Under the pieces are notes generated by a model. It was given only the letters and a program-made list of their open reading frames with translations, was not told the DNA's origin and did no database searches. This document shows, one piece after another, positions 8,212-11,602 of a DNA stretch of 25,301 nt; the stretch's first letter is position 1; the number at the start of each line of letters is the position of its first letter. Where the stretch lies: IMG/VR virus record IMGVR_UViG_3300009068_000176, positions 1-25,301 of that record. One strand, 5' to 3'. Made by a program: the position numbers and the translations under genes. The stretch is from a virus.

Positions 8212-9735
8212 CTAGCTACCCATCCAAGAGTTGGTTACGCTGTTTGATTGGGAGTTTATCCGGCGCGCAGGCTCGCGGTACTCGCGGTGCGCGACGGGGA
8301 AGGCAAACGTCACCGCCAGCGCGTCGGCGGCATCGGGTGAGGCTAGACCTCTACTACGCATTTCCTTCTTTCCTTCAAGGAAAATCGTGCCGCTACTGTT
8401 GGGCTTCTTCATGGGGCCGACCAGATCAGCCTTTAGCTGCCGGTCGCCAGGAATGGATGCTGTCTTCAACCAGTCCTTCATCAAGCCCCACATCTCAGCC
8501 CGCTTGTTGCCCCACATAATGGCGTTCTTGGCCTTCCAGCCAAAGTTTACCCCACGCACCTTGTACCGCTGTTCTGTGAGCCTGTCAAGTATTCCGTATC
8601 CGAGGCCACCTTCGTCGATTACCGACAGGATCGGCTTGTACTCCTCAATGGCGTCGATCACTCGTCCGACGATGGTCATGGTGTCCTCGCCCGAGTACCG
8701 TTTGATGGCAATAATGTCCCGCCCTTGGCGCACCACCAGCACGGTCGAGTCAGCGCCGCCGCGCGCGGGGTCTATCCCGAGCACAATCGGTGCCGTGGTG
8801 TCCTTCCACCGCTCGCGGCCCATCGCGTCCTCGACCAGCAGCGGCTTGATGAACTGATCCTCGCCAGCATCCGGAAACTCGCCGTACACCTCGACCTTCG
8901 CCTGTGGCGAATCTTCTCCGTATTCTGCGATGATCTGCTCATAGACCTGTTTGTCGGTGTCCTCCACCGTCCTCGCGTCTACACTACGGGTGTTCCAGAA
9001 CGCCCGTTTGGCGTGGAAGCACTCGAAGAAGTAACCTTCGTTGCGGCGCGGGTTGCTGAAGGCAAACCAGTACCTGTCCGGTGTGTTCTCGGTGAAGAAC
9101 CCGGCGCCGACCTCCCATATAGGATTAGGTATGCCGGAGGACTCATCGAAGATGAGCATCATGCCGTCCTGGTTGTGGACGCCCGCGTAGCTGTCGGGGT
9201 TCTCAGCCGACCACAGCTTGCCCTCTGCGGCCCAGTAACGTGTGCCTTTCTTCAAGTCGCGCTCGACCAGCTCGCACAGCCACGCCGCCGGCACCAGCTT
9301 GGTCGCGCTGATCTCGAACCAGTGGTTGTTGATGGTCATCGCCGCCCACTTGGTCAGCTCGGCCCAGGTCACTGACCGTAGCTGGCTCTCCGAGTTGGCG
9401 CTGATGATGACGCTCGCGCCAATGCGGGTGGTCAGCATCCACAGCACCAACCAACTCACCAAGGCCGACTTGCCGATCCCTCGCCCGCTGCTGACCGCTT
9501 CTCGCAGCGTGTCCATCTGCACCTTGCCTTTGTTGCCGTCGATGTGCGCCTTGATGTCGCGCAAGACTTCCCGCTGCCACTTGCGCGGGCCACGGAACTT
9601 GTGCAGGGGGGTGTTCTTCTGGCCCCAGGGGAACGCAAAGAGGACAAACGCCTCGGGGTCGTCGGCCAGCGCGGGCGACCACAATTCCACCATTAGCCGC
9701 TGTTCTTCCTCAGACTGATAGATCGGTAACTGCAC
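8212..9735 (-). CDS. Terminase large subunit (ATPase and nuclease)
   Basis: The 507-aa motor protein pumps DNA into the procapsid and cuts it. The ATPase domain has a Walker A-type loop SGRGIGKS (residues 83-90) and a Walker B MMLIFDES (192-199) with its catalytic Glu. A coupling-type SNPR motif lies near 227-230. The RNase H-like nuclease domain starts with VLGIDPARGGADST (318-331, D322). It continues with SVIDEGG (371-377, D374) and ends with SPDAADALA (466-474, D468), giving the three acidic metal ligands. The start is GTG 9735, inside the end of the small-subunit gene (26-nt overlap), with AGGGGA upstream. All key residues are present, so it should be active. Confidence 0.95.
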   Translation of the reverse strand: MQLPIYQSEEEQRLMVELWSPALADDPEAFVLFAFPWGQKNTPLHKFRGPRKWQREVLRDIKAHIDGNKGKVQMDTLREAVSSGRGIGKSALVSWLVLWMLTTRIGASVIISANSESQLRSVTWAELTKWAAMTINNHWFEISATKLVPAAWLCELVERDLKKGTRYWAAEGKLWSAENPDSYAGVHNQDGMMLIFDESSGIPNPIWEVGAGFFTENTPDRYWFAFSNPRRNEGYFFECFHAKRAFWNTRSVDARTVEDTDKQVYEQIIAEYGEDSPQAKVEVYGEFPDAGEDQFIKPLLVEDAMGRERWKDTTAPIVLGIDPARGGADSTVLVVRQGRDIIAIKRYSGEDTMTIVGRVIDAIEEYKPILSVIDEGGLGYGILDRLTEQRYKVRGVNFGWKAKNAIMWGNKRAEMWGLMKDWLKTASIPGDRQLKADLVGPMKKPNSSGTIFLEGKKEMRSRGLASPDAADALAVTFAFPVAHREYREPARRINSQSNSVTNSWMGS

Positions 9736-10126
9736 TGGCCGTCCCCTCGATCACTCTTGCGCGCGCCTGCTCAAGCGCCGTGATGACGCTGATCTTCTGG
9801 TACACGTCCACACTGATCTCCTGCCGGGCCGTCCAGCCATGCACATGCTGGAGGATCGCCAGGCTCGCCTTGGCGTCGCCCGCTTCAGACGCCTCGTTCA
9901 GACGCTGCGCTGCGCGCAGCTCATTGTCGGCCTTGCCCTTCTGCGCCGCCAGCTCAGCCAATGGGTCAAATTGGCACAATTGCCGGTACTCCAAAGGCAG
10001 CATCCCAGACGCCAGTGCCAGTGAATCTCCTTTCAACCCTAAAGATGCTGCTTTGTATATGGAGTCCAGACGCGCCTCTGTCGCCTGAAGTCTAGGTCGG
10101 ATCGCTAACGGCAGTGAGCGGAACAT
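9710..10126 (-). CDS. Terminase small subunit (putative)
   Basis: The 138-aa helical protein lies immediately upstream of the large terminase and overlaps it by 26 nt, the classic position of the DNA-recognition subunit. A central charged helix (about residues 58-83, AELAAQKGKADNELRAAQRL) could be the oligomerisation coiled coil. The segment SLAILQHVHGWTARQEISVD (about 88-107) resembles the end of other small terminases. I do not see a clear N-terminal helix-turn-helix signature, so the call is mostly contextual. The ribosome site before ATG 10126 is poor, and the start lies at the edge of the repeat-rich spacer. Small-subunit genes often contain or adjoin the packaging site. Confidence 0.75.
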   Translation of the reverse strand: MFRSLPLAIRPRLQATEARLDSIYKAASLGLKGDSLALASGMLPLEYRQLCQFDPLAELAAQKGKADNELRAAQRLNEASEAGDAKASLAILQHVHGWTARQEISVDVYQKISVITALEQARARVIEGTASAVTDLSV

Positions 10127-10143
10127 GGCTGCGTTATACCACG

Positions 10144-10170
10144 ATTTGGCCTATTTGGCCTATTTGGCCT
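10144..10170. repeat. Three tandem copies of a 9-bp unit (atttggcct)
   Basis: Three exact, in-register copies lie at 10144-10152, 10153-10161 and 10162-10170. They start 18 bp upstream of the small-terminase start codon. The unit is unrelated to the next two arrays. Direct repeats this close to a terminase gene could be binding sites for the small terminase or a transcription factor. Confidence 0.95.
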
Positions 10171-10174
10171 ATGC

Positions 10175-10210
10175 CATGTGGGGGCGCATGTGGGGGCGCA
10201 TGTGGGGGCG
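10175..10210. repeat. Three tandem copies of a 12-bp unit (catgtgggggcg)
   Basis: Three exact copies lie at 10175-10186, 10187-10198 and 10199-10210. The guanine run of five in each copy gives three regularly spaced G-tracts on the plus strand; another G5 follows at 10257-10261. Protein binding (iteron-like) or G-rich structure are both possible; neither is shown. Confidence 0.95.
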
Positions 10211-10330
10211 TAAGCGTTTGGCTTGCAAGAGAAAGTTAAAAATAAAAATTGTTCGTGGGGGCTACCCTGACCGACACGGCCAGCGCAGGGCCCTGGCCCC
10301 CCTTGCTGCGCTGCAACAAAGCCGATGGCC

Positions 10331-10452
10331 GGCCAGCACGGCCAGCACGGCCAGCACGGCCAGCACGGCCAGCACGGCCAGCACGGCCAGCACGGCCAGC
10401 ACGGCCAGCACGGCCAGCACGGCCACCGGCCAGCACGGCCACCGGCCAGCGC
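10331..10452. repeat. Ten-copy 9-bp tandem array (ggccagcac) with interrupted tail
   Basis: Ten exact head-to-tail copies of ggccagcac occupy 10331-10420. They are followed by ggccacc, one exact copy (10428-10436), ggccacc again, and a variant ggccagcgc (10444-10452). The ggccacc units look like copies that lost two bases, so the array has been expanding and decaying by slippage. Because 9 is a multiple of 3 and the unit has no stop in any frame, all six frames read through as artefact peptides. There are no unique spacers, so it is not a CRISPR array. Confidence 0.97.
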
Positions 10453-10494
10453 GGTAGACTCTGGAATGCGTGAAATGTGGACAATGTGAGCTAT

Positions 10495-10566
10495 GGCAGG
10501 CAGGCAGGCAGGCAGGCAGGCAGGCAACCAGGCAACCAGGCAACCAGGCAACCAGGCAACCAGGCT
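10495..10566. repeat. GGCA x8 array passing into 8-bp accaggca repeats
   Basis: Eight exact GGCA tetramers (10495-10526) run directly into four exact 8-bp units accaggca (10527-10558) plus a fifth with one substitution (10559-10566). The 8-mer contains the 4-mer plus acca, so the longer unit probably arose from the shorter and then amplified. Simple tetranucleotide repeats are uncommon in compact phage genomes and are prone to length variation. Confidence 0.95.
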
Positions 10567-10619
10567 GGCAGGGTCTATGTACACTATTTACCCTTTTTGA
10601 CCCCCGCTAATGTCGGCGC

Positions 10620-10637
10620 CCACGCAGCGCTGCGTGG
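10620..10637. promoter_or_regulatory. 18-bp perfect palindrome, possible operator
   Basis: The sequence ccacgcagcgctgcgtgg is its own reverse complement. It lies between the repeat arrays and the AT-rich stretch that leads to the plus-strand operon. A gapless palindrome of this length suits a dimeric DNA-binding protein or a site-specific nuclease. As RNA it would be a poor hairpin because it has no natural loop, so a DNA-level role is more likely. Confidence 0.55.
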
Positions 10638-10882
10638 CGCACGTGCCCTACACCATACATACTGTTATTTTAAAACTGCAGAATATATTCTTATGAAATA
10701 TAGCTTATCAGGCCTATACGCCCCTGAAGCGGGCGCAAGCGCGAGGGAAAGAATCTGCAAATAACATGCAATATTGTAAAGAAAAGACTTGCACTCCTGA
10801 AAAGACTATGGTCTACTCAGATTGTCTCATCCATGCGCGCCAATCCCCGCGCGCATGCTCATACACTTCAGGCGAGTAAATT

Positions 10883-11602
10883 ATGGCTGGATTCATATTT
10901 TACCGCGGACCTAGTCCAATCGATGGCGCGCCGATTGTCGCCATCGCCACGCTCAAAAGCGTTAACGCCAAGACTGGCGATATGGTCCAGACGTGGATAC
11001 TGCGGACCGATGTTAGCCCGCTCGACGCGATCGCGACCGGCGCGGACGCTAGCATCTGCGGAAATTGCGCGCACCGCGGTACCGCGAAACGCAAGCGGAC
11101 CTGCTACGTGGATATCGGAAAATCGCCATCTTCAGTATGGTCCGCCTATCATCGCGGACAGTACATTGACCTATCCGAGGATCCCGGTACCGTCGCGATC
11201 CTGATTGCCCAGCGCATTGTCCGGATGGGAGCGTATGGCGATCCGGCCATGGTCCCCGTGAAACAATGGCGCATGCTGCTAGCAGCTGCAGCTGGCCGCA
11301 CGGGTTACACTCATGCATGGCGCCGGATGTGGGCGCAAGCATTGCGCCCCTATGTAATGGCGAGCGTCGACAGCGTAGCAGAACAAGATACCGCGCGCGC
11401 GATGGGCTGGCGCACGTTCCGTGTGCGGACAGAAACAGAGCCATTGCAGTCCAATGAATTCGCATGCCCGGCATCGCCCGAAGCGGGCAACAAGAAACAA
11501 TGCATAACGTGCAAAGCATGCGATGGCGCGGATCGGCCCGGTAAGGCATCGGCGGCCATTATCGTGCATGGCGCCATGGCAAAGCACTTTGCAACAGCCT
11601 AA
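10883..11602 (+). CDS. DUF7227-like phage protein with two cysteine clusters
   Basis: The 239-aa protein is a conserved phage hypothetical whose SIVAIATL...KTGDM.QTWILR-type N-terminus (here residues 18-41) I associate with DUF7227. There are two cysteine clusters: ICGNCAHRGTAKRKRTC (C59, C62, C74, with H64) and ACPASPEAGNKKQCITCKAC (C195, C207, C210, C213). Each looks capable of binding zinc or an iron-sulfur cluster. The middle is helical (about 105-170). The function is unknown. It is the first and largest gene of the plus-strand accessory operon, which suggests early expression. The ribosome site (AGGCGAG) is weak but correctly spaced from ATG 10883. A hairpin follows the stop. Confidence 0.8.
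   Translation: MAGFIFYRGPSPIDGAPIVAIATLKSVNAKTGDMVQTWILRTDVSPLDAIATGADASICGNCAHRGTAKRKRTCYVDIGKSPSSVWSAYHRGQYIDLSEDPGTVAILIAQRIVRMGAYGDPAMVPVKQWRMLLAAAAGRTGYTHAWRRMWAQALRPYVMASVDSVAEQDTARAMGWRTFRVRTETEPLQSNEFACPASPEAGNKKQCITCKACDGADRPGKASAAIIVHGAMAKHFATA

Follow-up and report, generated by a model that had tools for sequence, protein, structure and literature searches.

The locus considered here raises the question of why a long non-coding spacer filled with tandem repeats should lie beside the terminase genes of a phage, and which part of it, if any, serves in replication or DNA packaging. The window, i.e., the whole stretch of 25,301 nt that was analysed, is an entire IMG/VR record, a linear 25.3-kb fragment whose nearest complete relatives are 36–38 kb in length. 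The spacer measures 756 bp (10127–10882), close to the gap of about 750 bp first reported, and extends from a 138-aa ORF (9710–10126, minus strand) to a DUF7227/phrog_2554 gene (10883–11602, plus strand; domain and PHROG match), with the terminase operon running leftward on one side of it and the first rightward gene on the other. In one relative with a circular assembly (G002, loci L166–L167) the DUF7227 gene is missing, and the spacer is followed instead by a different, cysteine-containing phage protein that is GP88-like by eye.

The gene content of the window is P22-like, with a portal protein (PF16510, E 1e-172) and a large terminase subunit (TerL). The coat protein is 74% identical to the major capsid protein of DSL-LC05, and a family-A polymerase and a DUF5906 primase/helicase are also encoded. 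Judging from these genes, the window phage is probably a P22-like podovirus that uses headful packaging, and the group to which it belongs consists of widespread freshwater bacterial viruses. Several relatives assemble as circles with end overlaps of assembler size, which fits circularly permuted DNA without proving it. A host or prophage link is confined to three fragments of uncultured bins that carry a related terL.

The terL gene (8212–9735, minus strand; Pfam Terminase_6N, PHROG terminase large subunit) specifies a protein that is 70% identical to TerL of DSL-LC05 and 67% identical to that of MW202483. In the latter (L163), a gene annotated as a homing endonuclease (10712–11158) lies between the terminase genes and the conserved box described below. 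The 138-aa ORF overlaps the start of terL, a position that makes it the candidate small terminase gene (terS). No significant Pfam or PHROG match was found for its product, and the structural model is all-helical and HTH-like (mean pLDDT 73.7), with weak structural matches in the PDB to phBC6A51 (2ao9), Sf6 gp1 and PaP3 TerS (E 0.8 or worse), and further weak matches to annotated TerS models. Model and matches are compatible with a small terminase without proving it, and the protein is treated here as a candidate TerS.

Four tandem-repeat families had been described in the spacer, and all are present in the sequence and by TRF. Array A is ATTTGGCCT x3.2 (10144–10172), and array B is CATGTGGGGGCG x3 (10175–10210), with a unit and copy number that vary in relatives. 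Array C (CGGCCAGCA, 10330–10454; 14.3 copies by TRF) consists of ten exact head-to-tail copies (10330–10419), an eleventh at 10427, and decayed copies thereafter. Array D begins as GGCA x8 (10495–10526) and passes into CAGGCAAC-type 8-bp units that end at about 10566–10572. The arrays are real and non-random: an array scoring at least 50 appeared in only 8 of 1000 first-order shuffles (maximum 80), and the real arrays score 58 to 215. The palindrome and the AT-rich stretch included in the original prediction are also there, the first as an exact 18-bp palindrome CCACGCAGCGCTGCGTGG (10620–10637), and the second as the most AT-rich 50-mer of the spacer (10659–10708, 80% AT). Folding of arrays C and D gave no indication of stable single-strand structure (z −1.6 and −1.3 for C, positive for D). 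Open reading frames cross the arrays, but the units of relatives are 4, 5, 6, 7, 8, 10, 13 or 17 bp long, so no reading frame is kept, and a coding role was rejected. True genome ends within the spacer were likewise rejected, since two circular relatives (G002 and G003) were split by the assembler exactly inside the arrays, where their contig ends overlap by 117 and 127 bp. The arrays thus explain the assembly breaks seen at this spacer in the window's group.

Homologous spacers of relatives were retrieved via TerL, the DUF7227 protein and DNA patterns. Almost all of these sequences are metagenome assemblies in which array copy numbers may be collapsed, and because assembler breaks fall inside the repeats, exact copy numbers, particularly those of short-read records, need to be treated with care. 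Across 54 related genomes and fragments, 70 arrays are found in 42.7 kb of spacer compared with 3 in 36.9 kb of non-coding DNA elsewhere, the kind of local enrichment that marks a VNTR locus. Outside the 900-bp spacer windows, 23 of 27 arrays have periods all divisible by three, as expected for genes. Although the small terminases of close relatives are 91–99% identical, the arrays are unrelated in unit sequence, unit length and array number. At this level of TerS identity, the units that occupy the positions of arrays C and D include CGGCCAGCA, GCAGGCCGGACAGGCCG, GAGCCGTC, CAGCGGGC plus CAACCAGCGC, GGGCCG plus CTGGCATGTCGGG, CGGTCCATCGGATCCCG, and GCCGGGCAG. Array D is replaced in relatives by CTGG, TGGC, CTGGCAGC, GGCACCCT and others, and five loci (L006, L009, L191, L193, L197) carry imperfect 22–28-bp repeats on the dyad GTTAGTGnnCACTAAC instead of arrays C and D. 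Array A is retained, at 2–3 copies, in many close relatives. Whole-unit changes in copy number on an otherwise identical background, again typical of VNTR loci, are also seen: L002 and L192 are identical across the approximately 700 bp compared except for one 17-bp unit, and there are six plain 17-mers in L085 versus three in L190. Among the distinct flanks bordering the conserved box on its GC side, 80 of 128 have an array scoring at least 50, and a strong array is missing from over a third; arrays are common at the spacer but not required. Because units, lengths and numbers change between close relatives, and whole-unit copies change between near-identical genomes, the arrays are, on sequence comparison, hypervariable minisatellites and neither fixed iterons nor a fixed pac code. 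Conserved iterons with a cognate initiator, as would mark an iteron-type origin, are not seen here, the units differing despite near-identical neighbouring proteins.

Several observations on the relatives bear on how this region changes. Two loci with TerL only 70% identical to that of the window (L302, L267) have 9-bp arrays that share the unit of the window's array C (CACGGCCAG), so this unit would have arisen, or moved, between distant relatives; CACGGCCAG is also contained within the window's own conserved box. The right half of the spacer, on the early-promoter side, occurs as two sequence types (L005, L087, L197 and L084 versus the window, L002, L085, L191 and L193) that reassort with array types, as if modules were exchanged at the arrays. 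In more distant relatives, the spacers are full of lineage-specific dyads: TGTTTAYGTAAACA in L163 (MW202483), TGACCCAGTGGGTCA in L162/L184 (OR003940) and GTAGTCATGACTAC in L029. The GTTTACA element of TGTTTAYGTAAACA occurs 11 times in the spacer versus 3 times in the rest of 24 kb. One dyad copy of DSL-LC05 lies within its probable early promoter, a position that suggests operators of fast-changing repressors.

Between the 12-bp array B and the 9-bp array C sits a strongly conserved box of 65 bp (10238–10302), which the original prediction did not single out. It consists of an A-tract with TTGTT, followed after about 38 bp by GGCCCTnCCnCCCC (GGCCCTGGCCCCCC in the feature as aligned over 52 loci), and is the best candidate for a pac site. 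A loose pattern of the box matched 46 of 80 terL loci, once per locus, and every match lies upstream of terL with one orientation, whereas five shuffles of these 713 kb gave 0–1 matches each; the 34 terL loci without a match are partly accounted for by contig ends or by the strictness of the pattern. A scan of viral contigs that did not require terL returned at least 120 stretches with the box pattern. Among the matches listed there were 114 new loci, 108 of them with terL (TerL identity 59–95%), and the box was upstream of terL in the window's orientation in 108 of 108, for a pattern derived from terL-linked loci and contigs that do not sample all phages at random. The loose pattern did not find the box in the isolate Rhodoferax phage P26218, and a nucleotide search of a phage collection with the box region gave no real match. 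An RNA element or terminator was considered and rejected: the box had no Rfam match and no consensus RNA fold across 49 sequences, and in one lineage it stands between terS and terL along the direction of transcription, a context that, together with the missing structure, excludes a terminator.

That lineage also indicates which gene the box accompanies. In six loci (L308, L217, L243, L211, L314, L295), the box lies 18–69 bp upstream of terL, and a same-strand ORF upstream of the box ends 0–43 bp from it. In the first three, the product of this ORF is a small terminase of Sf6 type (PF20901, E 2.5e-29 to 6.4e-28), which places the box inside the terS-terL operon. By sequence, the 138-aa protein of the window is of a different family from the Sf6-type TerS; a profile comparison of the two gave a possible common C-terminal segment, at a weak probability of 18%. 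Read from these gene contexts, the box follows terL rather than the window-type terS, and is kept beside terL even where the TerS is of the unrelated Sf6 type.

The spacer also carries probable promoters at either end. An extended −10 sequence TGGTATAAC (10133–10141, minus strand), about 7 bp before the terS start codon, is assigned to a probable late promoter from the conservation of TGnTATAw, which in 33 of 56 homologous spacers occurs no more than 30 bp from the terS start (shuffling predicts 0.28). At the other end, TTGCAC-N17-TCTACT (10789–10817, plus strand) is a probable early promoter, proposed from the sequence and from comparable sites in relatives, and absent from the list given by a strict consensus scan. 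A leader hairpin, CATGCGCGC...GCGCGCATG (10832–10857, plus strand; DNA fold z −4.8), precedes the DUF7227 gene, the first early gene, and L082 has similar hairpins ahead of successive small early genes. The arrays therefore probably sit between a leftward late promoter, before the terminase genes, and a rightward early promoter. Given the positions of these two elements, the main arrays lie upstream of both promoters and would not be expected to be transcribed from them. The distance from the box to the terminase start ranges from less than 20 bp to more than 1 kb among contigs, and in the window the box is about 95 bp upstream of the late-promoter −10. In L302 and L222, the A/T-tract of the box directly abuts the extended −10 (TGGTATAAA, TGATATAAA), and in several lineages the A-tract touches a −10-like sequence.

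Our preferred reading, to which we give a probability of roughly 45%, is that the box is a packaging-initiation (pac) region, and that the arrays are minisatellites of slippage and recombination without a sequence-dependent role. The spacer would then be a region for cis-control and DNA processing upstream of the terminase operon, in which terminase engages the concatemer at the box and minisatellites arise, by slippage and recombination, in the coding-free zone adjoining it. Any role of the arrays would be independent of sequence (spacing, GC content or DNA deformability), and neither TerS nor a replication initiator would recognise them. This reading is the most economical because the box occurs once, in a fixed orientation and linked to the terminase genes, and because it tolerates varying distances and persists where the surrounding genes change. 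Like a pac site, it lies in or beside the terminase genes and is asymmetric, single and fixed in orientation in each genome, and the P22-type portal and the circular assemblies of relatives are in keeping with this. The hypervariable repeat zone separates the box from the early side. As the arrays themselves break assemblies, the positions of contig ends close to the box were not counted as packaging evidence. A bolder form, which we consider rather doubtful, is that the packaging-initiation element belongs to the large terminase and was kept through replacement of the TerS family, the adjoining DNA being a hotspot that creates minisatellites, perhaps via repeated packaging or replication breaks.

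Against a pac site stand the lack of a loose-pattern match in P26218 and in 34 of the 80 terL loci, and the contact between the A-tract and −10-like sequences, which would also suit a promoter element. The box might accordingly control late transcription, as the upstream part of the terminase promoter, a site for a phage activator or an A-tract UP element, with the arrays merely spacing it from the early promoter. Besides the abutting −10 of L302 and L222, this would suit the position of the box just before terL in the Sf6-type lineage, and one box per genome would suit a single late operon; a distance to the terminase start that varies so widely, the gap to the −10 in the window, and a location within the terS-terL operon in the Sf6-type lineage all weigh against it, and we see it as a possible but lesser explanation. 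A replication origin appears unlikely; here helix opening would occur at the box and the AT-rich part, and the variable repeats would bind an initiator or regulator. The AT-rich stretch and the many lineage-specific dyad motifs in the spacers of relatives, the GTTAGTGnnCACTAAC repeats likewise, would be in keeping with an origin, but the repeats keep no sequence in close relatives, and the box accompanies terL, not replication genes. A minimum of cumulative GC skew, put forward earlier as a check, does occur near 11.2 kb in the window, but the skew is weak, differs from genome to genome and is confounded by genes running in divergent directions, and it does not point clearly to an origin.

The arrays themselves could still act independently of sequence, for instance by offering a terminase ring GC-rich DNA of regular deformability on which to assemble beside the box. 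Arrays do recur at this place in unrelated versions, even where TerL is only 69–70% identical, and such a role gains plausibility from SF6, where TerS recognises pac by sequence-independent contacts and its DNA-binding domain binds pac DNA without preferring a sequence (PMC4737164). The flanks that lack a strong array, the absence of any structure signal from the arrays, and unit lengths of 4 to 17 bp without a common helical phase make this distinctly improbable. Least likely is the original idea that sequence-specific binding reads the four arrays as one composite origin or packaging code. It draws on a layout found in the window genome alone and on the retention of array A in close relatives, and it is contradicted for arrays C and D by their complete turnover between phages with nearly the same TerS; strong arrays are lacking in over a third of the homologous flanks, the conserved part of the spacer is the separate box, and the SF6 domain shows no preference for pac repeats (PMC4737164). 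What holds of the earlier proposal is that the spacer is special, abuts the terminase genes and contains the genome's best packaging-site candidate.

The marking of DNA for packaging in headful phages is poorly understood, and binding of TerS to pac is weak or non-specific in vitro (PMC9611059, PMC4737164). A box present in more than 100 environmental phage contigs, and kept beside terL under another TerS family, provides a concrete sequence to test, and the minisatellites are unusual in that, within a small phage genome, unrelated tandem repeats arise again and again at one fixed location. Like bacterial and eukaryotic minisatellites (VNTR loci), the arrays differ by whole units between near-identical genomes; unlike those, they occupy a fixed place in a small phage genome, and the unit itself is replaced between close relatives. 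The open-access literature yielded no description of minisatellites at phage terminase genes.

The pac site of P22 is a 22-bp asymmetric sequence inside the terS gene and, to our knowledge, has no minisatellites alongside. The box of the window differs in lying outside genes, in its length of about 65 bp and in being bipartite. The two are alike in that their phages have a P22-like portal, with headful packaging probable for the window, and in being single asymmetric sites at the terminase genes (PMC9611059). The box, in a form that can still be recognised, also precedes the terminase genes of DSL-LC05 (OR003940, proposed 'Luchaoviridae'), a metagenome assembly (PMC10611076), and of MW202483. 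Their spacers, as in the window, are full of lineage-specific repeated motifs, but these are dispersed dyads (TGACCCAGTGGGTCA; TGTTTAYGTAAACA) and not GC-rich minisatellites.

A close parallel is the pac region of SPP1, where sets of direct repeats (boxA, boxB, boxC; pacL-pacC-pacR) span promoters and the start of the small-terminase gene (PMC4737164). The SPP1/SF6 pac, like the window, is non-coding DNA at the small-terminase promoter and start with several direct-repeat sets (PMC4737164), and the claim that no described phage element resembles this layout therefore has to be narrowed. SPP1 and SF6 pac are 80% identical, whereas in the window's group there is complete repeat turnover between closer relatives, and the conserved box, with its candidate role in packaging, is separate from the repeats and follows terL. 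Neither complete repeat turnover nor a separate conserved box was found described in the open-access literature. Because SPP1 pac also joins direct repeats with promoters at the small-terminase start (PMC4737164), the element is of a kind already known, and what is new is the complete turnover of its repeats together with the separate conserved box.
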